64,000 nt of DNA, from assembly GCA_031841125.1 (NCBI GenBank), contig CM063109.1, positions 69,508,914-69,572,913 on the forward strand, written 5' to 3'. This document shows positions 40,606-61,628 of the stretch, piece after piece (the first letter of the stretch is position 1; each line of letters opens with the position of its first letter). The stretch is from Acanthococcus lagerstroemiae. Lineage: Eukaryota > Arthropoda > Insecta > Hemiptera > Eriococcidae. The notes under the pieces are model-generated. The model saw only the letters and a program-made list of their open reading frames with translations. It had not been told where the DNA came from and searched no databases. The position numbers were made by a program, and so were the translations under genes.

Positions 40606-41861
40606 ATGGGTCGAGTAATTCGCGCGCAGCGTAAAGGAGCTGGAAGTGTTTTCAGATCCCACACTAAACACCGTAAAGGAGCTCCGAAACTGCGTCCACT
40701 AGATTATGCAGAACGACATGGCTACATCAAAGGTGTTGTTAAGGTATAAATGGGAAATTTCGGTTGTAGAATGTTATTTGAGCTGTAAATTTAGTTCGAA
40801 TTTCGACTCGTGCTTTATGACAGTATTTGGAATATTCAACTTATGTTCACCTTTCATATTAGGATATCATTCACGACCCAGGTAGAGGTGCGCCTCTCGC
40901 CATAGTTCACTTCAAAGATCCGTATCGTTATAAGACCCGAAAAGAATTATTCATCGCTCCCGAAGGCATGTACACCGGCCAGTTTGTATACTGTGGAAAG
41001 AAAGGTACAGCAACGAGTATAAGTAACAATCTTATTTTGTGTTACCGATGATGCTTAAGACATTTGAAACCTGAATGTTATCTTTATGAAGCCAAACTTT
41101 ACTGAGGTTACACCGCAGATCACTGATTTGTCTGTTATTACATTCGAAATGTTGTGGAATCACGATCAAAACTAACGCAAGTCTTTTTATTTTAGCTACT
41201 CTTCAGATTGGCAATGTAATGCCCGTCGGCACCATGCCTGAAGGAGCTATCGTATGTAACTTGGAAGAGAAAACCGGTGACCGTGGTCGTTTGGCCAGGG
41301 CCTCTGGTAACTATGCCACCGTTATCGCTCACAATCCCGATTCGAAACGTACTCGCGTAAAATTACCTTCTGGAGCGAAAAAAGTTATCCCTTCGAATAA
41401 CAGGGCCATGGTTGGTGAGTATCGTAGGAAGTTGACTATACTGTTCGTTACAAACGTTTAAGTTCTCCCATAATTGATGTTCTTGTATTTTTAGGAATTG
41501 TCGCCGGAGGTGGAAGAATTGACAAGCCGATTTTGAAGGCGGGACGCGCATACTTTAAGTACAAAGCTAAACGTAATAGCTGGCCCAAAGTTCGTGGTGT
41601 TGCTATGAATCCCGTCGAACATCCTCACGGTGGTGGTAACCATCAGCATATTGGTAAAGCTTCGACCGTTAAACGAGGCACCCCTGCTGGTAGAAAGGTG
41701 AGAGCGATTTGTACTCTACGAATGAGTAATTCGTCCGATTTTATTCGGCATAGAGCTAGACATAATTTGTTTTACTTGCGTTATAGGTTGGTCTTATTGC
41801 TGCAAGAAGAACAGGTAGAATTCGTGGTGGTAAAACCGACACGAAGAAGGGCGACGATTAA
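40606..41861 (+). CDS. RpL8: 60S ribosomal protein L8 (uL2)
   Basis: Core large-subunit protein near the peptidyl-transferase centre. Exons: 40606-40743, 40863-41004, 41196-41414, 41495-41697, 41787-41861; all phases agree. The start [16 protein letters not shown], the GRGAPLA segment, the conserved [15 protein letters not shown] loop with the uL2 histidines, and the C-terminal TGRIRGGK are diagnostic. Length, about 258 residues, is normal. An acceptor at 40597-40598 precedes the ATG and a donor after 40411 suggests a short non-coding first exon, usual for ribosomal protein genes. A polyA signal lies at about 41889. The second intron of the coding region hosts a C/D-box snoRNA. Confidence 0.97.
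41039..41113 (+). ncRNA. C/D-box snoRNA in an RpL8 intron
   Basis: Terminal stem GTGTTACC/GGTTACAC (one mismatch) encloses C box ATGATGC (41048), D' CTGA (41071-41074), C'-like TATGAAG (41085-41091) and D CTGA (41102-41105). The D box ends about 90 bases before the 3' splice site, close to the spacing usual for intronic snoRNAs. Guides upstream of D' (CATTTGAAAC) and D (CCAAACTTTA) are present; I cannot name the target. The C box differs at its last base from consensus. Confidence 0.75.
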
Positions 41862-41889
41862 ACTGTCAAACGCTTTTATACGTTTAAAA

Positions 41890-44800
41890 ATAAAACTTCT
41901 GGTTTGTATGTTGATTTTTCTTTTTCCATTTTGAATAAGACCGGAATTATTCGTAGATAGTGCTGCGTTTACAATAACATTAGAAGAGCACTGGTTTGTA
42001 GACATTGTGAAACGTTTGAAGAGTTTTCAGATATGATACTTGGAGTATGAAATTACTGTTCGTTGTGTGTTCATTACTTTAAAGAAAAACATATATCAGC
42101 TAGTATTTTTGAGTATAGGAAAAAACATTGACGAATATGTAGGAAAAAGAAGTTAGATGTTCCACGGTGTAATTGGGCGTCAACTAGTCTTTTTTTTTTG
42201 CGCTCGAGTAAGTGCATTTTAGTGTATTATGTGCTTTTAGCGGGTTGAAAAGAGCTGGTGTCATGTAATAAAATATGCCATTTTGCTGAACTGGATGCAG
42301 TTGCTAGATCATTGGCCAGCGAGAATAAAATTGAGAACTTTTGTAAATGCATTCAGATATTGTTGGACGGCATTTTCCAGTAATGTGAGCGTATACGCGT
42401 GTACTGCATTTCATGTGTTGTGCTGGTCGACTGATGAATCTTGAAGGTCATGTTGTCGCGCACATTGGAGTTTAGTGTATGAGGATGGATCAGTGCCAAT
42501 GTTGATGCTTTTGAAGGTTACCACAAATACCGGTGTTACTTACTGATCACGTCGATTCGTTTCGTTGTGTACTTTTTTTTTTTTTTTTAATAAATTGAGA
42601 GATTGTTTTGATACGTGCATGAAAGGTATCATTGCCGAGTGAGTAAACCAGAGGAAAGTCTAGTATTCAAAAGGAAATAAAATGGCCTATTAAAAATGAA
42701 ACCATTTTTGTGTGAATTTTATCGCAAATTTTGTTTTTGACAGTAAACAGTGGACTGTGAGTTGAAAAGTTTACAGAAACCTAAGTAATCATATATTAGC
42801 TTTCTTCAACATTGGAGGAGTTCTAGATTTAAAACATCGATTCGTAAAATCTAAGTGAAAATTTAGACTGGCGACCTCTTCAGTATAACAAGAGCAGTGA
42901 ATCATGTCACGGTTTTCGCTTTATTTTCAAAATAAAAATACTGCCCGTAATTATCCTTGAAGAGAGATCAAAAAATACATTTCAGAATTTGCTTGTGGAA
43001 ATCTTATTTCAATATTTTGAAATGTCTGCAGAATAACAATATAATGTGAAATAAAGTTTTTGTTAATGGAAATTTTCTCGTAGCAGTAGTATATAAAGTT
43101 GACTGTGGAAAGTCGTAAGTTTCTGTCGATATTTACAACGAAACCTCATTGCCGCCCTCAATTAATTTTTCAACGTGAAACATGTTAGTTCATGATGATG
43201 ATTCGTTATTCTTTAAATTGAAACGCCTTGTCCCCCTTTCAATTTTAAAAATATGCTGCAAATGAAGGGTTTTGCTTTTCTCAACATATCCTAAACATAT
43301 ATATTTTCATCTTGCTGGCACACCTGTATTCGCTATAGTGTACGTATTGATTTTCGATTTTTGAGTTTGGAATACAGCGCCCTCTTCCCCGTCCCTCTTT
43401 CATCGATTCCATACATGAAAAAAATAAAAAATACATAGCTCGCAGAATTTTAATGAATATCTCGAGGTTATAGCTTACTGAGTTCAATACGCTAGTTTTC
43501 AGGTGTTTCAATAAGGAATAGTCTGATCAATAAGATTTTGATTTCTGGTCTTGGCGTGTTTTCAGTGTATGAATTTTCGTTAATTTGGGGAAATAATGTG
43601 AAAATGGTCACCGTTTATACTCATGAAATTGAAGTACATATTCCATTAATTTCTGATATTTTCACTTTTCATAAATATCCTAAAACATAATCTACGTTAC
43701 ATTTATGACATTTTTTGATTCTATTGTATTTATTATCGATGTGACAACTTTTAATTAGAAGTGAAAGTAATGTAAACCAAATTTCAGTTCTGTAAGGTAC
43801 TTATCCTTAAATTTTTTATGAGTTCCACTACAAAAAAAAAATAAATAAATAAATAAATAAATAAAGCGGGGCACTCCCTATATGCCAAGTCACTGCCTGC
43901 TGATTTGGCATTGATACCTACTGTTAAAATATGTCAATAAGGGTTGTAGTTATGCCATGTTGCCTTCAATTACTGCCAGAAAAATGTGGCAGTACTGCTA
44001 GTCCACAGCCAGACAATACTTGACTGTAACAGTGAATTAATTTACAGAGCTCCGTGCCAGTGTAATTGCCTGATTGCCAGTGCTTAGTGGCAATGTGGTC
44101 GGCTTAAATGGCAGTGCGTTGGTTGGCACTGCAGTTGCCATATAAAAGTGGCAGTATGGCCGATTTAATTGGCAGTAAGCTAACAGTAAAATAACTAAAC
44201 ACATTGGCAGTGAAATCTGGAAGTCTATACTGTCGTGTTTACGATCTCTAAGAATTTCTCAGATGGTGCACTGCATGTATTTCACACAACTCTGTATTTG
44301 TAGTAGTAGTGGATCTGTCAAAGGAACTTATGGCTGCGTTATCATGGCTTTCTTCATGGGGATAGATGGGTATAATCTGTAAGTCATAAATTTATTGAAT
44401 TTTGTATTATTTTTCTATAGCTTCTGGGAAATGCGAGAATGTGAGCCTTTCTGAACGCGTCTTTGTGCAATAGTATCATGTGATAGATATCTTGAGATCA
44501 TAAGTCATTAAATGTGCGTTGTCTCAATCGATCGTAATATGGGAGGGTGATTCTGTAACCGCATCAGTCAAGTGTTTGGATCCAACAGCATACTTCATAA
44601 TTTTTACTTCTTCTAAAAAGTTACTCATAAATATCTAATCGATGGTTATAACTGAAGGGAATGGATGGGGTGGTGGTGTTCATTTTTTTGTAATTTTTTC
44701 AAATTATGAACTTTTTATATGAAGTCATAATCGCGTTTATTTTGGGCGATAATATTGAAAGGTGACAGGGCAGGTGGGAATCCGATGGTCAGGTCAACTC

Positions 44801-46028
44801 AAGTATGATATTTTGTCCGTGGTTTGGGTAATTGTAACCCCATTTGCTTTATTAATAACACTTATTTCTCATCATATCAATATTTCTATACTAAAAAAAA
44901 CAAAAACATCCTTCCCCCTTAGGAATTAGTCAACTGTGTGCAGGATAGCACCCCTTTTCCGAATCTACGATGTATTCAGTATACCCTTGATTTTCATATA
45001 GACTAGCTGGCATCATTTATTTACTGGGCCGTTCATTGTTTTCGTTCCTTGTTACCCACCTATCAGCTTTCAAGTCCAGTAATCTAAATTATTTTTTGTA
45101 ATGCTTACGTCTATTAATTACACAATAGTTACTTATAGTATCACTTCCTTTATTTCGTAGTTGCCAAATCAACTAATACTGGATTAGTCATTCCACTCTT
45201 TGTACAATGTTACCGTCGGATTTTTCGAAGGTCGATTCCCTGTCTCGTGCCCAAATGAATACGATTTCATAAACCGTGTATTCAGAAAGATTATTCAAAA
45301 TTTTTTTCCAACCCCGGCTATTTTGCCCCGATATTTTTGCGAAGTTCGAAATTCAATAAAATTCTGAGAATAGTTTATAATCAGCTACAGTGATTTCACT
45401 TTTAATTTAATTTATTGTAATGAATTCATAATGAAGGACGGTCAGTTGCGTCTCAAGTGGTTCTCAACTCTCAACGTGCGAGATCTGATTCAACTACTTC
45501 CAGGTATCTTGTGTTCTGGGCATGTTTTTGTTGCCAATTCAAAAGATCGAGTTGATTGCTGCCAAAACAATTAACGACTGAGTTAAACTTGTACGCATTA
45601 ACAAGCTGTACCTGTACCGTATTGAACAATACACGGTAGGTATATCGTTCATGCATTGTTTATAGAGGGTATTTCCCTATAGTTAATTATAGCGAAGCCG
45701 CTTGTTTCATTCTCAGCACGCTTTTTCATCCACTTGGTAAAAATTCATTATTCGAGGTTTTGAAATAATAATTTTAACAATCATTGTGCAGAAGATCAGG
45801 GTAGATACATGTCTTCGGATCGACTATGAAGCAGACGTAACATTTTGTCAACGCTCATTTTTATAAACTTGAAAAACCTGTATTTAGCTAAATAAATATG
45901 CTATACCACTACTCTATCGAAACATCGAAGTACTCGTAACTGGGCGAACGAATACGTGAAAAGTGTTACCCTAAAATATGTTTCAGTCGCGTAAAATTTA
46001 ATAATTCTCGAAATTTCTAACACTCGAA
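41890..46028. other. intergenic between RpL8 and the esterase-like gene
   Basis: No gene recognised over about 4.1 kb. It contains an (AAAT)n microsatellite at about 43839-43865 and a 350-base patch rich in TGGCA/TGCCA. Several poly-T and poly-A runs occur, for example near 42571-42588. Minus-strand open frames here are short and without domains. Confidence 0.5.
43877..44232. repeat. patch dense in TGGCA/TGCCA half-sites
   Basis: About fifteen TGGCA or TGCCA pentamers in both orientations, often extended to TGGCAGT or ACTGCCA, lie within 350 bases. They are irregularly spaced and do not form one tandem unit. Possible explanations are a decayed inverted-repeat element or a cluster of binding sites of the NFI half-site type. 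Confidence 0.45.
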
Positions 46029-49000
46029 ATGAAAGTGCTTCTGATACTGGTAAGTTGTGCGGTGCTTGGGGTTCAATGTGATCGTGTGAAACGTATCGTC
46101 GGTGGTGAGCAGGCCGCAATACCGAAACCGATACCCAATCTTGTGCAAACTGCGGGATCTACGAAAGGTTCCAGCTCCAGCGAGAATGCTCAATCCACGG
46201 GTTCAGTCCGAGCTGGCAGTTCGAATAAAGCGGCGGTCACTACACCAGCCACTGATTTCTACAGCCAGGATTCGGTGTATATTTACGAAGAAGATAGGGA
46301 TGCGAAGATATTCGGTGTAAGAGAGAAAGATGGGTATATTTCTTTCAAAGGAATCAGATACGCACAGCCGCCGTTGGGCCGCAACCGGTTTCAGGTACAG
46401 TAGCTATACAAAATTGCGGATTTGGTGAATTTGCTGTGTACCTCCGGGTGAAGTTAAGTATTGTGGTTTACTTCTGTTTATCAGAGGCCTGTAATTGCAC
46501 ATCTGAAAGACAAAGTTGAAGCGTTCGATTATGGGAGTCCGTGTGTGCAACCCCTTGCAGACAATTCAGGCATCACGGGCAACGAGGATTGTCTGTTCTT
46601 GAATGTATACACTCCTTCGGTGAGTCAATGTTCTTTGTATCTTTTGTCATTCCTGAATGCGTATTTTTCAGATCAGATTTCTGCGTACGGATTTTAGGCA
46701 TTTCAATGTTTAATCTCTTTTCTTCCAGCGTTGAAATAGATTTGTGTGCAACTAGTGGATATTTCTGAAAGCTCATTGAATTTGCAGTTCATCAATAAAG
46801 TCAGGCTTATTCTCCCCCTCCACCCGTGACCATTGAGATTCGGAATCAGAATTCTAGTATTTTTTTGGTTTTGAAATTATAATATCAATTGCTGAACCAC
46901 TGATGGGTGTTCCAAATTCATTTAGTACGTTCAGAAGTTGAGTACCCGAATACATTTTTTGGATTTGCAGATGAGGTGCTGTCAGGAAGAGTCGAAGAGT
47001 TTTCGTGTGGGGGGGGGGGGGTAAGATTTTGAAAGTCCCAACTGACTCAACTCAGTATTCCCAAGTATCGAAGCAAAAAAAAAACCTTTTGACCTGTTGG
47101 ATTTTTCTGACTGACTCAACTCAAAATTCCCAAGTATCAAAGCAACAGAAGAAAAACCTTTTGACTTGTTGTGGTTTTCCAACTTCTTAACTCATTTCCC
47201 ACGTACGAAAGCAAAAAAAACAAAAAAAAAACTTTTAACTTGTTCACTTTTCCCAACTCACCTGACTGAAGATAATGAGTGCCTCTCTTAGACCAATGAG
47301 TATATATCCTCCTAAAGTTAATAATATTTGGATGCTTTGAAAACAGGCATAGCAGATGAATTTCTGCAGTGATGTCTGGCGGAGGGGGGAGGGGGAGAGA
47401 TTATCTACTGAGTCCAACTACCAAAGGGAGAATAACCCCTTCCCTTTTTTAAGCGCTCCTCAGAATTCTAAATAATTATTACTAATTTTCGAAATCGACT
47501 AAGGGGGAGAGAGAGCGCACACTACTCCCGAAACGATGGTTGAAGTGATGCTGGTTAATCCGCGGAACTGGTAAGTGGTGATCGAATTTGCTGGCACACT
47601 GATGCGGGCCAAGGAGGACGCCAAGCCCGTGAGACAGCGAACAGTATCTCCGCAGCTCACGCAATCCACGCATCAGATTTTGAACGACTATTCTCCATAA
47701 GTAGGAAAGGCTCACCCACCAGACGGTCGGTTCGACAGCTGAAACCCGTCTCCGTGCCTGAGAAGAAGCCTGAAAGGTGATACCAGGGTATGGCGGTAGT
47801 GAGGGTGAACACGGACACGACAAGTGAAACCGCGAATAGAAAAACGTGTGTTGTTAGGTGTCATTTAACAAAAATAATTATATGGATCCGGAGATTAGCT
47901 CTTCTGATTCAAAGCTTCATTTGTAATTTCTATATTTAGGGTGTGCCAATTCCCAATTTCTTCCTTCTGTAGTCCAGAAGGAAGAAATTGTGATTTGGCA
48001 CACCCTAAATATAGAATTTATTAAGTTCACTCACACTCCAACATGAACACTAATATTCATCTGTAATGATGAACTGGTAGTAACAATCGAAGCCCAAAAG
48101 GTCCAAGTTGATTTTACTAATGTTCGGACTGAGGTTATTATGTAGTAGACCACTGGATATCCTTCTTTTTATTTGAATGGTACGTATAGTTGTATCCTTG
48201 TACTCCTACCGCTCCTTGAATTGCCGATATCAGCGTGACTAAGGGAGACGCAGACTAGTCCCCCAAATAGATTGAGTGCCCAGTCAGGCAATGCTAAATC
48301 TGTTCTTATTATGAATAATGGCAAGCAGCCTAATAATAATGTTTTCTAATGCTTATTTTGTGTGGCTCTGCTCCATAGATACCATTTCTGTCGCATCAGT
48401 GGTTGCTCGGAAATCACTTACCTATACCTTCTTGAGATCACGAGTTGTGTCTAATATAGAGCCATGTTTCATTTTTAGCATCATAAGCGTCAACAGGTTT
48501 GATTATGTTATATAGGTGTACTCGAGGAATGCAAGCGGCGTTCCAGTGTTTTTCTGGATTCACGGAGGAGGATTCACGAGAGGTTCTGGAAACCAATATG
48601 GAGTAAAAGATCTGGTTAAGAAGAACATCGTTGTTATTACCATGAATTACAGACTTGGAACTGTCGGTAAGGGGCAGTTATACGCAATAGTTCACACGTG
48701 ACTAATTCGTAATCCCTATATTCTTTCACCTGTACCTAGCATAAATCGGAAGTTGAAACAAAAATCACTCTTGTTGATTAATCATGAAGATACAATTTGA
48801 ACTTCTGAAAGAGTAAACTGGTCTTGTACCTGCTTTTTCAAACATTACTCATATTATGAGTAATAAGAATGATCAACTGATTCTAAGTGTATCATGACCC
48901 TGTCAATGAACATTTAAAATCCTGTCTTAATATATTTATTCATTAAACATCCCTCCCCATAAATTTACGTTTGACGTAGTGATGTATTGTTCACGCAGGT

Positions 49001-51964
49001 TTCCTTGGTTCAGAGGACCAGCAAATGGCGGGAAATGCTGGCTTATTCGACGTTAGAGCAGCTTTTGAGTGGACCAAAAGATACATTACCTACTTTGGTG
49101 GTGACCCCAGCCATATCATCACCGCTGGTCAAGGAAGTGGGGCTAGTCTGGCCATGCTCCTAGCCCAGTCTGATTTTACCGCCGGTACTGCTTTGTGTTT
49201 TATTTTTCTTAGTTTTTTTTTTCCTTCTTAAAGTATGTATGTAATTTTAATTGCTGTCGAAGAACAATTAATTTTATAAAAATTTTCAACAGGCTACATC
49301 AAGGGCGTTTTTGCAATGAGTGGCACTGGAATCTCTTCAAACGCTGTCGATTACGCCCCGGGCAACACTAGTACATTCATTTCACAGGCATCTAAGTGCT
49401 CTAAACTGAGTCCTTTGAAAACAATTCGTTGTCTGCAATCAACTGATCTGAATTCTATCGTTACCGTCGACAAAGCTTTAGAAGTAGGTCTATGCTTGAG
49501 TATTTGAACTCCAATCGCGATTCTTAAAAGCTTAATTTCTACTAAGTGAACTTGATATGTCAAATTCAGGAAGTTCGCATTGGTGACGGTGGATTTGTGA
49601 ACGCTGTTTCGAAGCTACTTTCCGCTGGTCCTGTCATCGAGGGTAAAAATGACGGTCGATTCTTGTCTTACTTTCTGCACAACAACCCACTGGATGCGTT
49701 GAAAAGTAAAAAAATGCCAAAAGTACCTTTGCTAATGGGTACAGCGAAATCTGAAACTGGAAATGCTGTGACAGGTAAATTATTGATTGTATTTTATCCT
49801 ACTTGTCCTTTTCAATTTTGAGTCCTTAATTTTTCTCTCGTGTGTAGGAAAGTTCAAAGAAGATGTAACGAAGAGACTGAAAGTGCCAGAATTCTTGAAT
49901 AAAGTTTTACCTCTGTCCCTAGTGGATAACAATATTGGTAAGTACGTATTCTACAAATATACATATAGAAGATGATTCTATTTCGGCCAAATTATTGATT
50001 TAATATTTTCAGTAAAAATAAGTTCATATTTCACTGCGTAGGAAAGTCTAAACTGTGTCATTTCTCTTTGTAGTAAAATAATTTTATTGCGAATTGCAGG
50101 ATTATTTACTAACGGTGCGGTAAATAAGTTAGTGAAAACATTATTCAGCAATGATAAATATTTAGGATTCATTACTTCAACCTTATCGAAGGGATTAAAT
50201 GACTTCCAAAAAGTAATTGAGGTACGTAGTTCGTTAATATGTTCAGAATAGGGAGGTTTTTCATTTTCCGCCCTTATTCGGTAGCTGTAAGTATTACGAT
50301 AATTTCTTTGTATTTGTTAAAACTTGGTTATCCAATCTAATTATCGATAGGAATGCAAGCTATACTAGGATGATACGAAGCTCATCAAAATTGATTTTTC
50401 CTAATCCCTATCAACTCAACAATCATTAAAAATTGTAGGTTTAAAGAATGACTTACGTAGAAAATTGAAATTCGTGTAAGTAAAATAAAAAAAGATGCAT
50501 TACACAGTTAGTATAGTACCTACTTATATTGTTTTAGGATTATCTTTTGTCATTATAAAAAGCACTAGGTATTTCATTGGATATTGCGGATAAAAATTAA
50601 GCTGTCGGGATTTTTCACATTAGTTTATACTAAAAAGTACCCATTGGAACGAAAAATTTACCAGATGAGTCAGTGTTGGATAACTGAATTTTCTTATTTA
50701 CGTGTACACTTCTACATAATATTATTATATCGTAAACTTTCCTCGCTGATACCTATTATAGACAACAACAGACGCTTTATTCAATTTGCCTGCTGCGACA
50801 ACGACCACATTGTGGAGCGATGCTGGAGGAGATTCTTACTTTTATAGTTTCGAGCACGAATCAGGCCAGTCTGCTAAATCATCATTTTTGGAAGGAATGT
50901 CTTTATTCTCACCGGATACGTCTTCTACTGAGAAATCCCGTAATTTTTTCTTATTTAATTACTGTTTCACTTATATTTCGCTATAAACAACTGTTGTTTT
51001 TTTTTTCTGTTCGAGAATAGCTGTGCCAAATTTTGAGTGAAGGTGGAAAGCGTTAATTTTACCTGTATTATTATAATACTCATCTACTTCTTGTTCAGAC
51101 TTTTCTGTCTTATTAACAGCTAGTCACGGAGATGATTTGTTGTATCTATTCGAATTACAAACGCTGGAAGGAAAACCAGTTCCGGAAGCCGCTTTGAAAG
51201 ATTCGAAAGATCTTAAAGTGAAAGAAGTATTTGTGAATGTTGTATCGGACTTCGTAAAAAATGGGTACGTATGTTACTGTGAACTAATAATGTGCTCCTT
51301 TTTTCTGGTAGGGCTGTATGAGACTTTAGTAATTTCTTCTCAATCATTCTTCAGGAAACCTCGACTACCTAATTCAAAAGATGAATGGCGGCCTTATAAA
51401 GATGAGAATACATATGGTATCATATCAGACCAACCGAAAATCGAGAAGAAATTCCGCTATTGCCAAGTAGCGTTATGGGGTGGTTTCGTTGATAAACTGA
51501 CGGATCCGTTCTGCAATTTACCCGGTATCGATAACGTACTAAAACTTATTCCTCAGGATTTATTGAAAGGCGGATTACTTAGTGCCCCTGCTGGCGTTTC
51601 CAAAGTGATCGGCAACATTCTTCCTACGAATGGCGGTAATGTACTTCCTGTTGGCGGGCAAGGCAGCGCATTAGGGAACATTGGCGGCGGCCTTGCTGGT
51701 GGCCTAACTAAAATGGGAGATTCAAATGGAACTGGGAATCAATTACCGTTGCTCGGTGGTGAAAATCCTACAAGCTCATCTAATGGCAGTAAGCAGCCTC
51801 AATTGCCATTATTGGGTCAAAAAACCACCAGCCAACCTAGTAATGGTAATAACGGTAAGAAGCAGACAACGACTCCATCCAGTAAAACCACTAGTGGTAA
51901 AAAGCAGGCGACCACCACTGTACCTATCGGTCAAATTCAGATAAAATTTCCGGGCCTTGGATGA
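46029..51964 (+). CDS. secreted carboxylesterase-like protein without catalytic serine
   Basis: Alpha/beta-hydrolase fold, carboxylesterase/cholinesterase family. Exons: 46029-46394, 46485-46619, 48516-48666, 48999-49184, 49293-49483, 49570-49774, 49848-49937, 50100-50221, 50762-50939, 51120-51264, 51355-51964 (792 residues, phases consistent). A signal peptide (MKVLLILVSCAVLGVQC) is followed by VKRIVGGEQA, like a trypsin activation site, then a Ser-rich linker and the fold from about residue 85. The family's EDCLFLNVYTP and oxyanion HGGGF are present. The nucleophile elbow reads GQGSGA where active enzymes have GESAG, so glycine replaces serine; the acid region (AKSETG) and HGDDL histidine remain. 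The tail is a Gly/Thr/Ser/Lys-rich linker. Probably non-enzymatic (adhesion, binding or cuticle role), as in neuroligin- or glutactin-like relatives. Polyadenylation probably near 52380. Confidence 0.9.
47040..47250. repeat. three-copy tandem repeat, unit about 70 bp
   Basis: ACTGACTCAACTCA at 47041 and 47110, then AACTTCTTAACTCA near 47180. Each is followed by TCCCAAGTAT- or CCCACGTAC-like bases, an A-run and CCTTTTGACNTGTTG. The unit decays towards the right. Confidence 0.65.
47928..48016. repeat. 89-bp palindromic MITE, copy 1
   Basis: Ends TTCTATATTTAGGGTGTGCC and its exact inverse, and the interior is also self-complementary (AATTTCTTCCTTCTG, 5-base turn, CAGAAGGAAGAAATT). Transcribed, it would fold into one long hairpin. 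A diverged copy lies at 55668-55754. Confidence 0.8.
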
Positions 51965-53238
51965 ATGGAACAATATGTACGCCATTAGGACTAAGAATTC
52001 TACATAGAGACTAAGCTGTTTTTACTTTGATTATAGCATTGCTTCATTTCATATTCCACTATTTACATTTGATTTGTAGAGTTAATAGGTGTGCCATTGA
52101 GTTTCACGAAGTCTTAATATGACCAGCCCTGGTTATACCTTGTTGAATTTTATGTTGTACCTACTACTCATGTTACTCAAATGTATTGTTATTCGGCTTG
52201 CAAATTCGTAATACACATATGAGTTGAAAGGCGTTACTGCAGTTTTTCTTTGTAACATTCTCAGCACTGGATTTTAAAAAGAAGGCAAGAAAAGAGAATA
52301 ATGAGCGCTTTCTAAAATTTGCCCCGAGGCATATTTCCCCTAAATCCAGTACTGAATATTATTGAGAACAGAAAATCACAAATAAAATGGGTTTCTTACG
52401 AGGTTTGGTTTGAGGGTGCCAGGGGGGGGGGTATTATATGAATGGCATAAGAGCAACGTTATTCTTACATCTGTTCTGATAGTGATTCCTGGTGCTGAGT
52501 CATTTCCTGCTGGTAGTTTCAAAATCATATTTTTAATTGGATCGTGATGTAATTTTAGAATTACAGTTTTAATTGGACAGTGACAAAAATCTACTTCCCA
52601 ATCCGTTTAGTAGTGTTCGTCTGTCCATAATGCTGACCGTATCTGAAACTTTATCACTATCTGTTTTCATAATAGAGACTTCGACAGTTTTCAACTTCCT
52701 TTCATTTTTGGATAAGGAGAGAATGGAGAAAGCAGATAGAACTTATGTGACTGTGAGACCTTGCGAGCTGAAACTGTGAGAGTGAGCGATGCAAGATTTT
52801 ATTGAGGGGTGGAAGGACATGTTGATAGAAGTGACAGCTGACGATTGCCCGGAAAGCAGGAACGTACATCGATGTTCGATGCAGTGTGGGAGATAGAGCG
52901 AATGTACGAACTATACGAATCTAGAAACTACAAAATTATTATTTACTATTTAGTTTGCGCTTTTCGGATTCCACGATATTAGCGCTCCTAGTGGAATTGT
53001 AAAGAAACACGAAGTCTCACTCGAAAGTTAATCCAGTACCACGTATTATGTCGATAGTCCGTTTCGCCGACAAGGCTGCCGACTTTTCGAGGACGTGATG
53101 ACGCCGATGACGATATGGTATGACAGCCAGAGCGCAAGAGGATGAGAAGGGAGCGAATAGCGAAATGCATTCACATTTTTCCACATTCGATATGCGAGCG
53201 ATAAGTAGCGAAGTGAAGAGAAGAGTCAAGTTTAATCA
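51965..53238. other. intergenic between the esterase-like gene and MsrB
   Basis: Holds the esterase-like 3' UTR (AATAAA near 52380) and a G-run at 52421-52430. The last 200 bases, moderately GC-rich with many CG dinucleotides, are the probable MsrB promoter and 5' UTR. No other gene seen. Confidence 0.5.
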
Positions 53239-56200
53239 ATGGCAAGTAAAACGTTCTCCTTAATCCGCAATAATATTCTATATAAGGTAAGATTTCAATA
53301 TTATTGTGTAATTTATCTTGTATGCGTGTTTATTTTTTGCACTCCGTACGTTTTTTGGCAAACGCGCTCGTCTTCGATTCTATTACAGTTTGTAGCTTTT
53401 TCCTACCGTGGTGTGTATGTAGTCAAGCAAATTAGTAGTATTTACATTTGTCTATGTATCTGTTGTAGAGTAATAAAGGAATTCATTTTAGATTTGTTCG
53501 TGCAGCTCATTCGAATATGACGGACGCCGATATCACTAATAAAGAGGAACTGAAGAAACGCCTCACTCCGTTGCAGTACCATGTGACTCAAGAGAAAGGA
53601 ACCGAGAGGTATGGTTTAATTCGAGTATTGTATTAATTTAAACGCGGTGTTAAAATTGGTCAGATTTGTTTTCAAAAGGAACTTTCCTGACGGTTCTGTA
53701 AAATGTCTTTCTATTAACAACGTGAAAATGATGTGAACTTGTAAGTCAGTTCTGCTACTGAATGTTCCGTGAAGACTTTGAAACACTGATTCAACGTATT
53801 CTTCATTTTGAATCGAAGTTGTATATGAGCCAACGATAATTAAAAACGTTTGAATAATTGTGGCCGTATGTCGCAAATCTGATGAAATGACAAGCGTGAT
53901 CGGGAATTCCAAAAAATGTGTAAAGATATTAATATTACGGCTCCGTGTAGTGGATTAAGAGGCTTGGATCATGATGAATTTTTTACTAATGGAACTGAGA
54001 AATCAGTTCTGCTGCAAATGTGCTTGTGATCCGGTCGGCCAGAAGCTCAGCTATCCGCCCATAAGGACTCCATACTGGACGGTGGGCTGATCCACATCAG
54101 TTAGAAATTTCTCTCGAATGATGAATCAATCAAGTCAGTTCTGCTACTGATATTGAAGTGAAGATCTTTACATCCTGACTTAATTTGTTATCTTAGTACA
54201 TTTTCTGTTATGGTATGTATGTACTGTATTAGATGGTTGACTTCAGAGTATGTCCATTGTTTTCACAGTGAATTGATCAACAAAGTTAGTTTTTGCTACT
54301 TCTGAAATGTCTGTGGGCACTTGAGAAATCTAATTTATTATTCCCCGATCTTAACGATGTAAATTTGAACTAGCATTATTGTTAGGATTCTGTGAGAAAA
54401 CTTTTTGGAATGATTATTTGGATTTGTAAAAATGATGAATCAGATGTCAGTTCTGCTGCTGATATTGTCATGAAGATATTTAAATTCTGATACAGTTATT
54501 GGTGATCCATTAGTTTGATGTTTTGCCTGCATGAAGATTCTTGATGTTACCAAAACATGACTGCTTTTGACTGATGGATTAACAAAGTCAGTTCTGTTAT
54601 TGATGCTTCTGTGAAGACGATGACAGTGGTATGAATTTATTAATTTAAGATTCATGGGAACGTGTGAAAATTTGTAGCTGGAAACACCTATCTGCAATAT
54701 GAGTAACAGCTTAGTCAGTTCTACTTCTGATATGTCAGTAACCAAATGTTTGTGATCTCTATGAGATTCTGATATTTTATTTATACTTACATGCCGAAAA
54801 TGTGAATTTAAACTATGTAGCAGTTAGGTCCAGAGGTAAATTAGCCAAATAAGTTACCAGGAAATTTCTCGATGAATCGGTACATTTGGTCATTTTGGGC
54901 TGCTGTAGTAGCTTAGTGGGAGCAAGGTGGAAAAGAAAACGTGGAAGTGTAAAGTAAAAAGTCGGAAGTTTTTTGAAATACCTTTAATGTTTTAAAATTA
55001 TGAATTAACCATGTCAGTTCTGTTGCTGATTTCGTTATGAAGATGTCCACATTCTGATACTTTAATTGATAATGTGTTACTCCGTTAAAGTTTTCTCTCG
55101 TATGAAAGTATTGAGAAACGTGCAATATTAAATGATGAATTAATCAAGTCAGTTCTGCTACTGATATTACTGTGAAGATGTTTAGATTCTGATCATAATA
55201 TTGAAAACATGAAACCTGTTAAATGATGAATATACTAAGTCAGTTCTGCTACTGATATTACAATGAAGATAATAACATCCTGATATAATTACCTGAAATT
55301 ATTTACGACTTACGATTAAGAAAGCATGCAAAAGTGACAACTTGGCATTCTTAGAATGATGAATTAGCAAAGTCAGTTCTGCTACTGATGGTGCAGTGAA
55401 GATACTAGATTTCTGATAAATTATCAGCTCATTATTTATTTGTTTTTAAAATTATATATGTAGATGGATATGTTTCAGTTTTAGTTTTTGCTATGTTTAA
55501 TTACCTGTCGTTGCTTTCAACAATACAATTTTTAAGTTTGGACAAAGGTGATTTCAGAGAAACAGTATCGGTTAAAGCTATATATCTGTCTGAACGATGG
55601 TAAATGAGCTCCTTTCAGCCTGATTATATCTTAGTGTCCATGTTGGAGTATGAGTGAACTTGGTAAATTCTATATTTAGGGTATGCTAAGCAGCCGAAAG
55701 CGCTCTGGACCACAGAAGGAAGAAATTGTGAGTTGGCACACCCTAAATATAGAATGATTATAAGTATCTGATGTCTCCTCGTCTTTTCTTTGCGAGTTAT
55801 GCAAATTATCATTTATTGCATACATTTTTTACAATACAATTTTTGAAACAAGCAACTGTTTTTGAAAGTTGTGTAGGTACATGAACCTGCGAGTTGTAAC
55901 CCTGGTATTCAAAGATATGATGAATTTTGTATAATGTCAGTTCTGCTACTGAATTTATTTGCGGAAGAATATTTCTGATGATTGAATACCTTGTTTCAAT
56001 AATTAACACAGTCGGACATAATTATAAATCGCTTGTATTGAGTAATATCACTTTGGTTTAGCTATCAATCTTCTTTTTGTTCTGTTCGAAAACTGCCAAT
56101 TTAAACGTAGACAATTTTCAGGCCCTTCACCGGAGTGTACAATAAAACCTCGGAGAAAGGCACGTACAGTTGCGTAGTCTGCGACCTTCCTCTATTTTCA

Positions 56201-59200
56201 TCTGATACGAAATTCGACTCCGGATGTGGTTGGCCGGCGTTTAATGAAGTGCTCGATCAGGGAAAAGTCAAACTTACTAAAGACACGAGCAACGGTAAGA
56301 TTCTCAAGAAGACTATTCTCATTTCAAGAATTGTTAGGCGTATCGTAAACTAACAGTTACTTAAGTTAACCATAACATTGTCAAGTTGCCATGAAACGTA
56401 CGTCTGAAGTGCCGGGACATGAAAAGTATGGTGATCTTGTTTACATTTTGTTGAATACGTTTTGTTCAGAATGCCGTATATTTAAGCGATTTGAAACGTC
56501 AAGAGGCACGTGAGGAATGTGTGTCTGTTACAGTGACACACCTGCGTTCGGAATTCGGTCTTGTATTTGGAGGCATCTGAACTGTTGAATGTTTGAACTT
56601 TCGTGTCCCGACACTCGATAAACTAAAATGCTTTCAGTTGTGTAGATGTGTTGTTTCCTTAATCACTCGGTGTTGCTTTTTGATTGTTGAATGTGATGAA
56701 ATCCTGTGTAGGCTTAAATTTAGTAGTTGAGCGTTTAGACAGGATTAGATAGATGGTTTTATGATTAGTAGGTAGCTTTTGATGAAAAACCTAAGCATTT
56801 AGTTTACAGTTGGGTAGGTTAAGATAAACTGAGCGATCTGTGAACAGCAAAGGATAAAAAAAAAGTGTGGTTGAAAGGGCTGGTATCAACGTTTTCTGGG
56901 TCTGGAAGAGGAAACAACTGTTAGAAATTCATGAAAATATTAGGAACTACACCCACTAACAAAATGAGTTATTGTCGCGTAGAAGGATGGTATGGTGGGA
57001 CGTACGGCGATGCACGCATGCCAAAGTGGCCCCTGAAACATCGCACCCCCGGCCCCAGAAATTACCCTTTCGAGTATCGCATCAGTGGCCGGAGGTACAT
57101 GTAGAAGGATAATCGTTCTGAAACCATTTCCAATTTATGAAATGAATGTGCATTGTGATCGTAGTGGTTTGAAATTTTTGATACGAACCTCTTAAATCTC
57201 GCAAATCGTAAGCCTTTCGATCTCATGAAAGTATTCCTTTGTAAATGATTTTATCGTGGTATGTACTTTACTTTAAACAAAAACGAGCGTGAAAACGCAA
57301 TTATGTATTATATTATATTATATTATCTGATGAACGATAAAAGAATCGAGGATACGAGTATTTTGAATGGTCATTTTCCTGAAAATGTCAAAAAGATTAA
57401 CGTGATGCATAAAAATTTCAAATTGTGCTGACATTGGGATTATAATAATTACTTACTGCTCTCGCGGGTGGCAAAGTGACTATATTTGAGTATGGAAAAA
57501 ACTTTGTATCTTCGTATCAATAATGTTGAATGCTAAATATCAAGGACAGTGAATAGTTGGCCATAGCAACCTAACGAACCATTACATTCAGTCTCATGAG
57601 GTATAACTACCTTGAGTGAAATTCAATGACAGATGCTCCCTTGTTCGTTGATAGTGTTACTGTAACTTCTGTTCTTGTAATCTGCTAATATAACAAATTC
57701 TTCTGCTTAATTTCCTGTTAGTATACTGAAATAGAGCTGATCCAATTAATGGCTCTATTTCCTAATCTTTTCACTATAAATCATTATCTGTGAAGTAATT
57801 GTGGAATATTTTGGATTCTTAAATTGATGCCCACTTAACTTTGTGTAACTTTTTCTCATTTATTCAATTTAATAATGTCTTTATTCTGTAGTATGTTGAT
57901 TTGATTCAATAAACTAGATTCATTTTAGTGCAGATCGTGCTGTTCGTGATCGACTTCGGTTAGGTCTTTGAACTGCCTTAGGTGCACTTGAATTTGAGAA
58001 ATTATGCCCATCGCCTATCGTACATTGAACATGTCAAAGTCTGTGATCCATTTCATTTATAATTTTGAATCCAGATTTTTACAGCACGCACCGGAACTCG
58101 CATTGGTTCTGGCAAGTGTGAAAGTTACACCTAGTTGTCCGTCATTCGTTGCATCACCGTGCGGAACAGCCGGCGTTAATCTCATTATTAGATGTTAATT
58201 TGGAAATCCTGTTTGCAAATTCTGAAGGTATCATTTTTTATTGAAAACTATCCGAATGTCGAGTTTTCGGTGTAGCTCAGCTCCCTGTCTAAAAGAATTC
58301 TGTGCTAATAGGTCAAAGATCAATGAACAGGATCACAAACAGCACTGTTTCTGTCCGGTGCAGTATAAAATATATATTTCTAATTGTCACACGTCTTCAA
58401 AAAAATTGAATAATTTATTCTGCCAAAAACGGTATTGGATTTCGATGTACATACGCGCCGTGTATAAATGTGATTCCGAAAATGTAACGTCGCTCGAAAC
58501 TTATAGAAATGAGAGCATTAATGAGTAGATACTTTTTTTGGACCGCGGTGGGGCACAGCCAGTCTACACGCTACACTTGTAATTATTTGTGATATGCTGG
58601 GGAAAAATGTTCGACTGAAAATGCACTTGTTAATAAGCACACATATGCATGGCACTCGTCTGTGAACTTTTCAGCTGCACAAGGAAATATTTACAGGGCC
58701 TCAGGTGGTGTCGGTGTGTAGTGGTAACTTCGTTATTTGAAACAATTATGGTTGTACAATAATTCGTACATGTTTCAAATGTGAATTTCGAATGCTACCT
58801 CGGTGGTTTCGAATGGGGAGATCAGCATTAAAATAGTAGTGTTATGTTCAGAGGAAACGAAGTTGTGAGAGACAGCACAGACCACTTTCTTTCCCCCTCT
58901 TCCTCTGAAAAACACGTTCTCTGATTTTCTCACCCAAGTAAGCAATTCTTATCAGTTTTGAGGAAATGAAAACACGTGAAGTTAGCAGATAACCTACTAC
59001 CAGGATGATAGTTGAACTTCTCCTTGTGCGAGGAGGAAGGGGCGGGCAAAATTTAGTAGTTTTTGTCGGAAACTGAGAACTTTGCCGACAACTTGTTCAG
59101 TCAGTATGCCATGGCGTATTCAAAAATTTAACCTGAAAGTGTTTCTCCCTCCCCTCCCTTGGTATTTCTAAGGAGGGGAAGAGGTGTAACCCCTCCATCG

Positions 59201-61628
59201 TAAAAGTAGAAACGAATCAACTCATTGGAAATAGAATCTGGCTAAGGGGAAAAAATCTACGTCTTGATACTATGCCGTGTTTACAGGAATATAGAAAAAA
59301 AATTGGTATCTGAAAGTCAGCCAATGATGACAGGACTAGGCTGATGCTAATTATCTTTATGGGGAGGGAAGAAGGAAAAGCAGGATGATTTGTAGCAGAG
59401 ATGACTAAAATCATTGAAATGTTATTTCAATGTAAGATGTTGGGAAAGAGTGAGTACTTTTCAATATTTAGTAGAATAGTTATTGAAATTAGTCGGGCAT
59501 ACAATTTGGAAAATTTTTGAGGCTGTAACACCCTCTGCACCTCCTTCGTACTGATTCTGTCGGACAAATTATCTTGGCTCGTGTATTCAAGACTCGAGAG
59601 TAAAAAGTAGAAACTAAGCCCATAGTTTGTACTTGCAGGGTGTCTACCGGTCTCGAAAAACCCCGAAAGTCCCGGATTTCGCAGAGAGGGCCCGGAAACT
59701 CGGAATACCCCGGAATTTGTTTAAGTGATCCTGGAAAAACTATTTAAAGTGCAGCAATTTTTCCTGTGAATTAGAAAATCAAATATTGTGAGAGAAATTA
59801 GTATGATTGGATGTGTCCCTCGCTAGATCTCAAGAAGGAATTAGCGGTAAAAGTTTGGGTCCTGGAAAAATGATTGGTAGGTCCCCAAAAAGTGCCGTAT
59901 TTTCATTTTCCGGTTTTGGTAGACGTCCTGGCTTGTACATATTGAGCGCCTTAGTTTCTTGTAACAAAAAAAAGTTTTAAGATTTCTTGAATTTGGGTTC
60001 TTCAGTTATATGGAAGTCTTGGAATTTAAGGAATGTTGTCGCAAATTTCTCTTTGTAAAACCGCAAAAGTTTTGTGAATTGTTCCCAATTTTAGCTTGCA
60101 AGTACATAAAAATACCGAAAATGTGCTTTAAATGCTTTTTTCAATGAGAGAAATGTTCCTTTGAATTTTATCCCAATTCTGAGCGACTAAGGACGTTCCG
60201 ACGTGAGAGAAAGAGGGCTTCATGATCTTCGTCAGTTTGTTATGAGTATTGGGTCTCTAATTGGCATTGGTGGCTTTTATGACACCATATTTGTAGTTTG
60301 AAAAAGTTGTGTGTTAGACCATGCTCGAGCGTGAATCGTTCAGAGTATTTTATACACATCAGCTCTCGACGGTTTCATCCATCTGAATCTCAGCACATCT
60401 GTTCGTTCTATTTCATTTTTTGTCTGTCTAGGAACGTCATAACCCCTGCGATACATTCGATACAAAATTTGACTTTGTTGTTGACAGTGAAAATCAGTCA
60501 TTTTTTCTGCACGACATCGGCTTTGGATAGAATTCTACTTCCAAGTCGATGCACAAGCCGATTCAAAAGTCAATGTCGAAACGGTTATTCCATGCGTCTG
60601 TATTAAATTCGAAGACAGGTAGGACATTCCTGATACACGCAATGTATGCAAATTGTAACTGAAGTGTTCTCACAGTGAATACACGAGTCTCGCAGAACTC
60701 TTGAAAAAGAATGAAGTGAAATGTGAATGATTGGTTTAGCATTGAAGAAGTTTCCCGTGAGGGTAGCGAGATTCAAAAGGGTTACCCTTGATTTGATTTT
60801 GAGGACTCCTACTGTCCGATAACAAGACTCAAATCGATTACCCTTGATTTCGTTTTTGAGAAGCCTATTGTGCTGTAGGAAGGTTCAAAAAGATTACCCT
60901 TGATTAAGTTTTTAAGAAGCTTGCCCTGCGGTTGCAAGATTCAGAAGGGTTACCCGTAATAAGGTTTTCTAGAACTCCGTTGTGTGGTTATGAGATTCAA
61001 AATACCCCTTCCCTTCCTCGCAGATATTTTGAAAGATTATTACAGCTGATGCGGCTACGTCAAATGTCAGAATTTTTCAACTGCTGTGATTACGCATTAC
61101 CCCTTTTGACACCCTCGGATCTGAACTCGTGACAAGACGTTATTAATTGTCCTTCATTTAACTCGCATTCTGTGAAAATATTGTAAATCGACTAGAATTC
61201 GTGCTATCCGAGTCAACGTTAGTTCGGTGGGAATAAATTTGTAAATATTTTTGAAGACGTGTCATGTGTAAATACTACGGTTTGGGTGTTCTAATTGGGT
61301 ATGTTTTTTTTTCTTTTGTTCTTTTTATGAATTCTTCCTTCTTCTCCCGTCTAATACACCGTCCTCTGTACGGCCTCGTATGTGTCTGATTTCTTCATAT
61401 TTACTTTACTGGAAAATATGGGTGCATGTGGAAAATTGTGAAGTTGGCGCGAATCTATTGTTATTGATCAAAAATCCAGGTCTGATTCGAACCGAAGTAA
61501 CATGCTCCAAATGCGGTGCTCATCTGGGTCACGTGTTCAACGACGGACCGCTGCCGACCCGTAAACGCTTCTGCATTAACAGCGCCTCGATGCAGTTCCA
61601 TCCAGCTGCCGAGACCAATTCTTCTTAG
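53239..61628 (+). CDS. methionine-R-sulfoxide reductase B, mitochondrial-type
   Basis: Reduces methionine-R-sulfoxide in proteins. Exons: 53239-53286, 53469-53608, 56122-56294, 61480-61628 (169 residues, phases consistent). Exon 1 and the start of exon 2 give an Arg-rich, acid-free leader ([16 protein letters not shown], then FRFVRAAHS) typical of mitochondrial import. The SelR domain follows: [22 protein letters not shown], two zinc CxxC pairs (CVVC, CSKC), AHLGHVF and the active-site [11 protein letters not shown] with catalytic Cys in the usual place. A shorter product could start at the in-frame ATG 53517. Using acceptor 53504-53505 instead breaks frame with exon 1, which would leave exon 1 as leader for the internal ATG. 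Intron 2 carries a snoRNA array and intron 3 is 5.2 kb. Confidence 0.93.
53720..53797 (+). ncRNA. C/D-box snoRNA unit 1
   Basis: C box ATGATGT (53728), guide GTCAGTTCTGCTA, D' CTGA (53758), C' GTGAAGA (53769), D CTGA (53786). Flanks ACGTGAA and TTCAACGT can close a terminal stem. C box end deviates from consensus. Confidence 0.65.
54112..54185 (+). ncRNA. C/D-box snoRNA unit 2
   Basis: C box ATGATGA (54118), shared guide, D' CTGA (54147), C' GTGAAGA (54158), D CTGA (54175). All boxes match consensus; the outer stem is weak. Confidence 0.7.
54426..54495 (+). ncRNA. C/D-box snoRNA unit 3
   Basis: C box ATGATGA (54432), guide variant GTCAGTTCTGCTG, D' CTGA (54459), C' ATGAAGA (54470), D CTGA (54487). 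TGTA before the C box pairs with TACA after the D box. Confidence 0.7.
54990..55062 (+). ncRNA. C/D-box snoRNA unit 4 (weak C box)
   Basis: C box degenerate (ATTATGA, 54997), guide GTCAGTTCTGTTG, D' CTGA (55026), C' ATGAAGA (55037), D CTGA (55054). It may be decaying. Confidence 0.5.
55124..55203 (+). ncRNA. C/D-box snoRNA unit 5
   Basis: C box ATGATGA (55132), guide GTCAGTTCTGCTA, D' CTGA (55161), C' GTGAAGA (55172), D CTGA (55189). Terminal stem CAATATTA/TAATATTG is perfect over 8 bp. One of the two best units. Confidence 0.8.
55216..55290 (+). ncRNA. C/D-box snoRNA unit 6
   Basis: C box ATGATGA (55223), guide GTCAGTTCTGCTA, D' CTGA (55252), C' ATGAAGA (55263), D CTGA (55280). No clear outer stem, and it starts only about 13 bases after unit 5. 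Confidence 0.65.
55350..55421 (+). ncRNA. C/D-box snoRNA unit 7
   Basis: C box ATGATGA (55356), guide GTCAGTTCTGCTA, D' CTGA (55385), C' GTGAAGA (55396), D CTGA (55413). Outer pairing is short. Confidence 0.7.
55668..55754. repeat. palindromic MITE, copy 2 (MsrB intron 2)
   Basis: Same ends as the element at 47928-48016 (TTCTATATTTAGGGT and its inverse). The right half is conserved (CAGAAGGAAGAAATTGTG, then TTGGCACACCC), but the left interior has changed, so the hairpin is less perfect. It sits among the snoRNA units. Confidence 0.75.
55904..55990 (+). ncRNA. C/D-box snoRNA unit 8
   Basis: C box ATGATGA (55917), guide GTCAGTTCTGCTA, D' CTGA (55949), degenerate C', D CTGA (55975). Terminal stem GGTATTCAA/TTGAATACC is perfect over 9 bp and unrelated in sequence to the stem of unit 5. 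It lies about 130 bases before the 3' splice site, the closest unit to the acceptor. Confidence 0.8.
57008..57098. repeat. dispersed SINE-like repeat, copy 2 (MsrB intron 3)
   Basis: Second copy of the block at 8770-8866, same orientation, starting GATGCACGCATGCCAAAGTG and ending at GTGGCCGGAGG. The GC-rich extension seen in copy 1 is absent. Confidence 0.6.
59639..59930. repeat. dispersed repeat opening GGGTGTCTACCGGT
   Basis: Opening is shared with 63711 (GGGTGTCTACTGGT). Both continue with short iterations: here variants of CCCGGAAA, there of GTCATGAAA. Probably different members of one family of elements with a conserved start and a degenerate internal repeat. Confidence 0.5.
60771..61010. 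repeat. 56-bp tandem repeat, about four units
   Basis: TTACCC landmarks fall at 60782, 60838, 60894 and 60950, exactly 56 bases apart, with a decayed further unit near 61003. Each unit reads roughly GATTCAAAAGGGTTACCCTT, then GATTNGTTTTTGAGAAG, then a variable part. It is in an intron and non-coding. Confidence 0.8.

Follow-up and report, generated by a model that had tools for sequence, protein, structure and literature searches.

Why should a single MsrB intron contain about a dozen copies of one snoRNA, when redundant guide copies are normally expected to disappear? Within the window (the whole 64-kb stretch of DNA that was analysed), this intron holds 11 clear box C/D snoRNA copies, eight of them box-complete and three decayed, together with one further doubtful relic. 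The array very probably consists of redundant SNORD38/U38 box C/D snoRNA genes that have accumulated in one intron by duplication, birth and death.

The host is an MsrB/SelR gene on the + strand, whose three exons join in frame to give a 149-residue protein. The SelR domain (PF01641) is found with E 1.8e-27 in exons 1-2 and 8.9e-17 in the last exon, and the nearest relatives among the best 120 of 8000 candidates are scale-insect proteins, such as MsrB of Parthenolecanium corni (86% identity over 100% of the query) and of Planococcus citri (85% over 96%), which makes a scale insect the most likely source of the window. The gene is laid out as follows.

53517..53608, + strand: MsrB/SelR coding exon 1, 92 nt; in-frame three-exon join; PF01641; 85-86% identity to Coccoidea MsrB
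53609..56121, + strand: MsrB host intron, 2513 nt, GT..AG; splice sites read directly; alignment to a scale-insect protein covers 100% of the joined protein
56122..56294, + strand: MsrB coding exon 2, directly followed by GTAAGA; SelR domain; in-frame join
61444..61628, + strand: last MsrB coding exon, carrying the stop codon; SelR domain; in-frame join

The GT..AG bounds at 53609-56121 and the SelR domain confirm the original prediction that one MsrB intron houses all of the units. This would be the first coding intron, between the first two coding exons, with splicing itself predicted from the DNA. A possible alternative 5' exon at 53236-53290, which begins ATGGCAAGTAAAACG and is followed by GTAAG, might lengthen the MsrB N-terminus.

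The copies were identified by guide, by boxes and by profile. The 17-nt GTCAGTTCTGCTACTGA, which spans the guide and D', has 10 occurrences in the 64-kb window when up to 3 mismatches are allowed, always on the + strand and always in the intron, between 53745 and 55952; 0.10 occurrences are expected in shuffled sequence, and none of 100 shuffles reached 10. With anchors chosen solely by the 12-nt guide, on either strand and with no more than 3 mismatches, the window gave 73, of which 15 lie inside the intron and 58 outside. Boxes C (RUGAUGA), D', C' and D (CUGA), with at most one mismatch allowed in C and one in C', follow in order at 8 of the 15 intron anchors and at none of the 58 outside; among 200,000 random + strand positions elsewhere in the window, the full order was found at 0. 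These counts bear out the original prediction of box C/D snoRNAs with a common D' guide. Furthermore, a sequence-only profile built from the eight box-complete units (model R1), which these units match by construction, detects three decayed units at 54572-54624 (E 6e-11), 54708-54751 (E 2e-4) and 53971-54028 (E 0.0017). The candidate relic at 54276-54315 (E 0.08) scores below an off-array match at 46845-46897 (E 0.036) and is doubtful, as the model cannot tell it from chance; another possible relic near 55478 has no R1 match and was dropped. The earlier count of about twelve units, eight of them complete, was thus correct to within one. All 11 clear units are sense to MsrB, and the C box is an exact TGATGA in six of the eight that are box-complete.

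53723..53792, + strand: unit 1, SNORD38-like; boxes present, C box ATGATGT (one change); RF00476 35.9 bits (gathering score 45)
53971..54028, + strand: unit 2, decayed; guide retained, D' lost (CAAA), C, C' and D absent in register; R1 14.8 bits, E 0.0017; fails the box test
54113..54181, + strand: unit 3, complete boxes; RF00476 36.7 bits
54276..54315, + strand: unit 4, doubtful guide-region relic; R1 9.4 bits, E 0.08; direct repeat with unit 7, 79% over 29 nt
54427..54493, + strand: unit 5, complete boxes; G at the guide position adjoining D'; RF00476 38.6 bits
54566..54624, + strand: unit 6, decayed; C box CTGATGG, D' TTGA, lacking D; R1 38.6 bits; fails the box test
54708..54751, + strand: unit 7, decayed; guide TCAGTTCTACTT; C, C' and D absent in register; R1 17.7 bits; fails the box test
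54992..55060, + strand: unit 8, four boxes with at most one mismatch; C box ATTATGA; C-to-T change in the guide; RF00476 29.0 bits
55123..55203, + strand: unit 9, complete; 8-bp terminal stem 55123-55130 / 55196-55203; RF00476 38.8 bits
55218..55299, + strand: unit 10, complete boxes, highest family score; RF00476 48.6 bits (gathering score 45 exceeded); tandem copy of unit 9
55351..55419, + strand: unit 11, complete boxes; RF00476 39.1 bits
55904..55990, + strand: unit 12, complete, degenerate C'; 9-bp terminal stem 55904-55912 / 55982-55990; RF00476 36.8 bits; fold z -3.1

Could such boxes arise by chance in a minisatellite or transposon array? A repeated unit inside an intron, with a MITE-like element beside it, is what such an array would offer, but Tandem Repeats Finder (minimum score 50) returned no array between 52000 and 58000, the units are irregularly spaced at 91-564 nt, and their flanks are nearly unrelated. 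The match to a known snoRNA family and to rRNA, described below, also contradicts this explanation, which can practically be dismissed. The original prediction had likewise preferred selection to a decaying minisatellite, and it is upheld by the lack of a Tandem Repeats Finder array in that region and by boxes and guide that are conserved far beyond the linkers. The neighbouring element is not part of the snoRNAs.

55628..55754, + strand: MITE-like element with inverted repeats, lying between units 11 and 12; a copy 82% alike is at 47928-48056, opposite strand

A hairpin at 55667-55755, within this element, folds strongly (z -5.7). It was considered as an RNase III processing site or a microRNA and rejected, as it belongs to a dispersed element with the 82% copy at 47928-48056.

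To judge from the covariance model, the units belong to the deeply conserved SNORD38/U38/snR61 family (Rfam RF00476). When the intron was searched alone (E up to 1), eight units matched, one at or above the gathering score of 45 bits and seven at 29.0-39.1 bits, so that only 1 of the 11 clear units reaches that score; seven units matched in a search of the whole window. The three decayed units and the relic are missing from the RF00476 matches in the intron search. Eight rows place other Rfam families on these units (TtnuCD8, plasmodium_snoR28, SNORD111, DdR13, SNORD18, SNORD26, SNORD59), all well under their cuts; they were put down to the same C/D features. The D' guide of the units is GTCAGTTCTGCT, and its core, CAGUUCUGCU before CUGA, is common to the RF00476 consensus and the array. 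According to published sources that give position numbers, RF00476 has its clan and target in common with U38 (PMC3511168; PMC8817022; PMC6461891). The U38 family is represented in Rfam by RF00476, RF00212 and RF00135, in clan CL00051.

Against eukaryotic LSU rRNA, the guide forms 12 contiguous base pairs, one of them G-U, with AAGCAGAACUGGC, at the site AAGCAGAACTGGC. This is the longest pairing in each of three rRNA loci (L001, L002 and L004, carrying LSU_rRNA_eukarya), which were retrieved by a pattern containing the target site and are partial rRNAs from elsewhere rather than this insect's own 28S. These three loci are titled as bacterial MAGs (Bacteroidetes, Rhodobacteraceae, Cytophagales) yet bear eukaryotic rRNA operons, and are probably contamination. 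By the +5 rule the duplex places the modification on an A, which would be the equivalent of human Am1858 and yeast Am1133. Among the box-complete units, the guide changes only at the unpaired position adjoining D' (units 5 and 8) or by turning a C-G pair into U-G (unit 8). Scans of viral contigs matched neither the rRNA site nor a U38-like pattern.

A different 28S segment, AAGCAGAAUUC, had been suggested as the partner of the guide on the strength of a 7-nt match. That suggestion is not needed, given the 12-bp match elsewhere in LSU rRNA, and was set aside; the absence of AAGCAGAAUUC from the four fetched rRNA loci is no test of it, since the LSU 3' end is cut in the three that were scanned. 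Similarly, the array had been proposed as a possible variant family with a special target. Such a family, directed at a new non-rRNA target, would be comparable to the orphan tandem SNORD115/116, and the tandem amplification does recall those arrays. In mammals, SNORD115/116 form tandem arrays with one snoRNA per repeated host intron and are orphans; the MsrB array is also a tandem C/D amplification but sits in a single intron and matches rRNA. Where an orphan-type guide lacks rRNA complementarity, this one has 12 bp. The canonical U38 guide, the A at +5 and guide changes confined to one unpaired position and one U-G substitution make a special target unlikely, and a new-target family very improbable; the family assignment and the LSU rRNA match speak for an ordinary member.

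What sets the array apart is its arrangement. SNORD38 is one of the snoRNA families putatively assigned to the last eukaryotic common ancestor (PMC6461891; PMC3511168), and the sources consulted give two human genes (U38A/B), both in RPS8 introns (PMC3766210), three in Arabidopsis (U38-1 to -3), CD9/13 in Dictyostelium and snR61 in yeast (PMC3511168; PMC6461891; PMC8817022). Compared with these, the MsrB units have the same C/D architecture, the same D' guide core and, it would appear, the same LSU rRNA target, but there are 11 clear copies (eight box-complete) in one intron, as against one to three genes per species in those sources. In animals one snoRNA per intron predominates, and intronic clusters are a described class (PMC11028025). 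The array resembles animal intronic clusters, including those of Drosophila, in having several snoRNAs per intron, and differs from them by its single common guide and high copy number. By its title, a 2004 paper by Huang concerns intronic snoRNA clusters in Drosophila. A search of open-access literature gave no description of such an array among the titles of the matches listed. Eight box-complete copies in one MsrB intron are an unusual arrangement of a well-known RNA.

How the array grew can be read in part from the units themselves. A block containing units 5 and 6 aligns with one containing units 8 and 9 straight through the spacer (69.7% over 195 columns), and units 9 and 10 form a 91-nt tandem pair that is 80.6% identical over 93 columns, flank included. 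Tandem and block duplication therefore account for at least part of the growth. The copies have since diverged very unevenly. Over the 28 pairs of the eight box-complete units, C, guide, D' and D together show 33 mismatches in 784 comparisons (4%), against 347 of 616 (56%) in linkers and 727 of 1120 (65%) in flanks; these pairs are not independent, and part of the box conservation follows from row selection, since rows were picked for having boxes and decayed units were excluded. Composition alone would give unrelated intron sequence 28% identity, that is, 72% mismatch. The C' box shows 54 mismatches in 196 comparisons, of which 42 involve unit 12, whose linkers were compared ungapped despite its shifted C' register. 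A fairer test, as it includes the decayed unit 6, is the duplicated block of units 5-6 and 8-9, in which functional columns count 61 matches and 7 mismatches and the remainder 90 and 69 (Fisher p 5e-7; 23 gap columns omitted). The C'-D linkers are short (8-10 nt) and variable, with a mean identity of 0.46; a guide upstream of D was rejected on these grounds, and the original prediction that only the D' guide is maintained holds.

These comparisons bear on whether the array is mostly a graveyard, in which U38 comes from one or two units and all others are decaying duplicates with no selection on copy number. The copies are redundant by construction, and three of the 11 clear ones show obvious decay. 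In unit 8 the C box is damaged, and the pairs that include this unit differ at 2-4 of 28 functional positions, as expected of a decaying member. However, in many pairs (for example u11-u12, u1-u11 and u3-u12) the linkers differ at 12-16 of 22 positions while functional positions differ at 0-1 of 28, a pattern that decay as fast as in the linkers would not produce. Gene conversion should have homogenised the linkers too. A graveyard of this kind is thus fairly unlikely, and several units appear to have retained their functional parts while their linkers drifted far. The array would be old, and should occur in other scale insects. The copies are most likely redundant U38 guides that are kept for dosage or are lost only slowly. 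A bolder and less probable proposal is that the lineage maintains at least seven working copies of one and the same ancient rRNA guide within an intron over long evolutionary time, breaking the one-per-intron habit.

Terminal stems offer a more mixed picture. Units 9 (8 bp) and 12 (9 bp) have perfect stems that differ in sequence, whereas the other six complete units have 3-5 bp. The two stems quoted in the original prediction are exact, CAATATTA/TAATATTG in unit 9 (55132) and GGTATTCAA/TTGAATACC in unit 12 (55917), but the general argument for compensatory pairing that was built on them is weak, and rests on these two units. Their ungapped stem scores are 17 and 21, respectively, where 1.7% of random intron positions reach at least 16 and 0.5% at least 20. 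By this score, a unit's own flanks exceed swapped flanks with p 0.0005 (nine units, including unit 6 with a misplaced D box) or p 0.0024 (seven units); by duplex energy, p is 0.06 for eight units and 0.75 when units 9 and 12 are left out. As the ungapped score supports them and duplex energy does not, terminal stems were rejected as a general sign of selection. When the eight units were folded against shuffles, only unit 12 was clearly better (z -3.1), with the others between -0.9 and 1.1; C/D RNAs usually fold no better than shuffles. A structured-looking stretch at 54016-54108 also proved no better than shuffles (z 0.06).

In the mechanism that these data suggest, the MsrB pre-mRNA would be spliced, C/D core proteins would bind the units in the excised intron, and exposed RNA would be trimmed away. 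The D' guide (GTCAGTTCTGCT) of each surviving particle may then direct fibrillarin to 2'-O-methylate one 28S adenosine, the putative Am1858/Am1133 equivalent. The array would have grown by tandem and block duplication within the intron, followed by birth and death, with seven or eight copies probably retaining boxes and guide as linkers and flanks drifted, and at least three decaying. Some details count against this reading, namely the gathering score reached by one clear unit of 11, the damaged C box of unit 8, the degenerate C' of unit 12, and the lack of a convincing terminal stem in six of the eight complete units.

Processing poses a particular question, because trimming that worked solely inwards from the ends would yield a long RNA bounded by units 1 and 12, and separate snoRNAs therefore require cuts between units. 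Such a long RNA, resembling a sno-lncRNA with the first and last snoRNPs as its ends and U38 RNPs inside, could be made instead of, or besides, separate snoRNAs. At least two snoRNAs per intron, as in sno-lncRNAs, are present in the sequence here, whereas the long RNA is hypothetical. Insects produce separate snoRNAs from introns that hold several, and unit 1 lacks a strong closing stem, both of which argue against a long RNA. In its favour, the terminal stem is strongest in the last unit, the one strong inter-unit hairpin that was folded is a transposon-like repeat and not an obvious processing site, and hybrids of this kind are left when exonucleases trim an intron that holds two snoRNAs (PMC11028025). 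On balance the long RNA is improbable, and separate, redundant U38 snoRNAs are the preferred outcome.

If at least seven copies have indeed been kept for so long, this would point either to an exceptional requirement for U38 dosage or to an intron RNA with several snoRNPs that acts as one long molecule. A series of about a dozen copies, some intact and others damaged or dead, with one guide and in one transcript would permit direct tests of the importance of snoRNA dosage. The same series could be used to test which boxes are required for accumulation and how an animal cell excises several snoRNPs from one intron. MsrB would also be another host gene for a family whose human copies sit in RPS8.

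Other features of the window lie upstream of the array. Exons of the ribosomal protein uL2/RpL8 (PF03947) are found at 41090-41934, where whole-window Rfam searches show no snoRNA. The second copy of the MITE-like element (47928-48056, minus strand) sits between carboxylesterase exons. It matches two Rfam families below threshold, MIR7504 (at 48.4 bits, where the cut is 83) and snoR110 (at 32.5 bits, where it is 44), and both matches are likely false. The carboxylesterase-family exons (PF00135) span 46005-51964, one scoring above and two below the curated cut, and the last reading frame of this region has a long Gly/Ser/Thr-rich tail.
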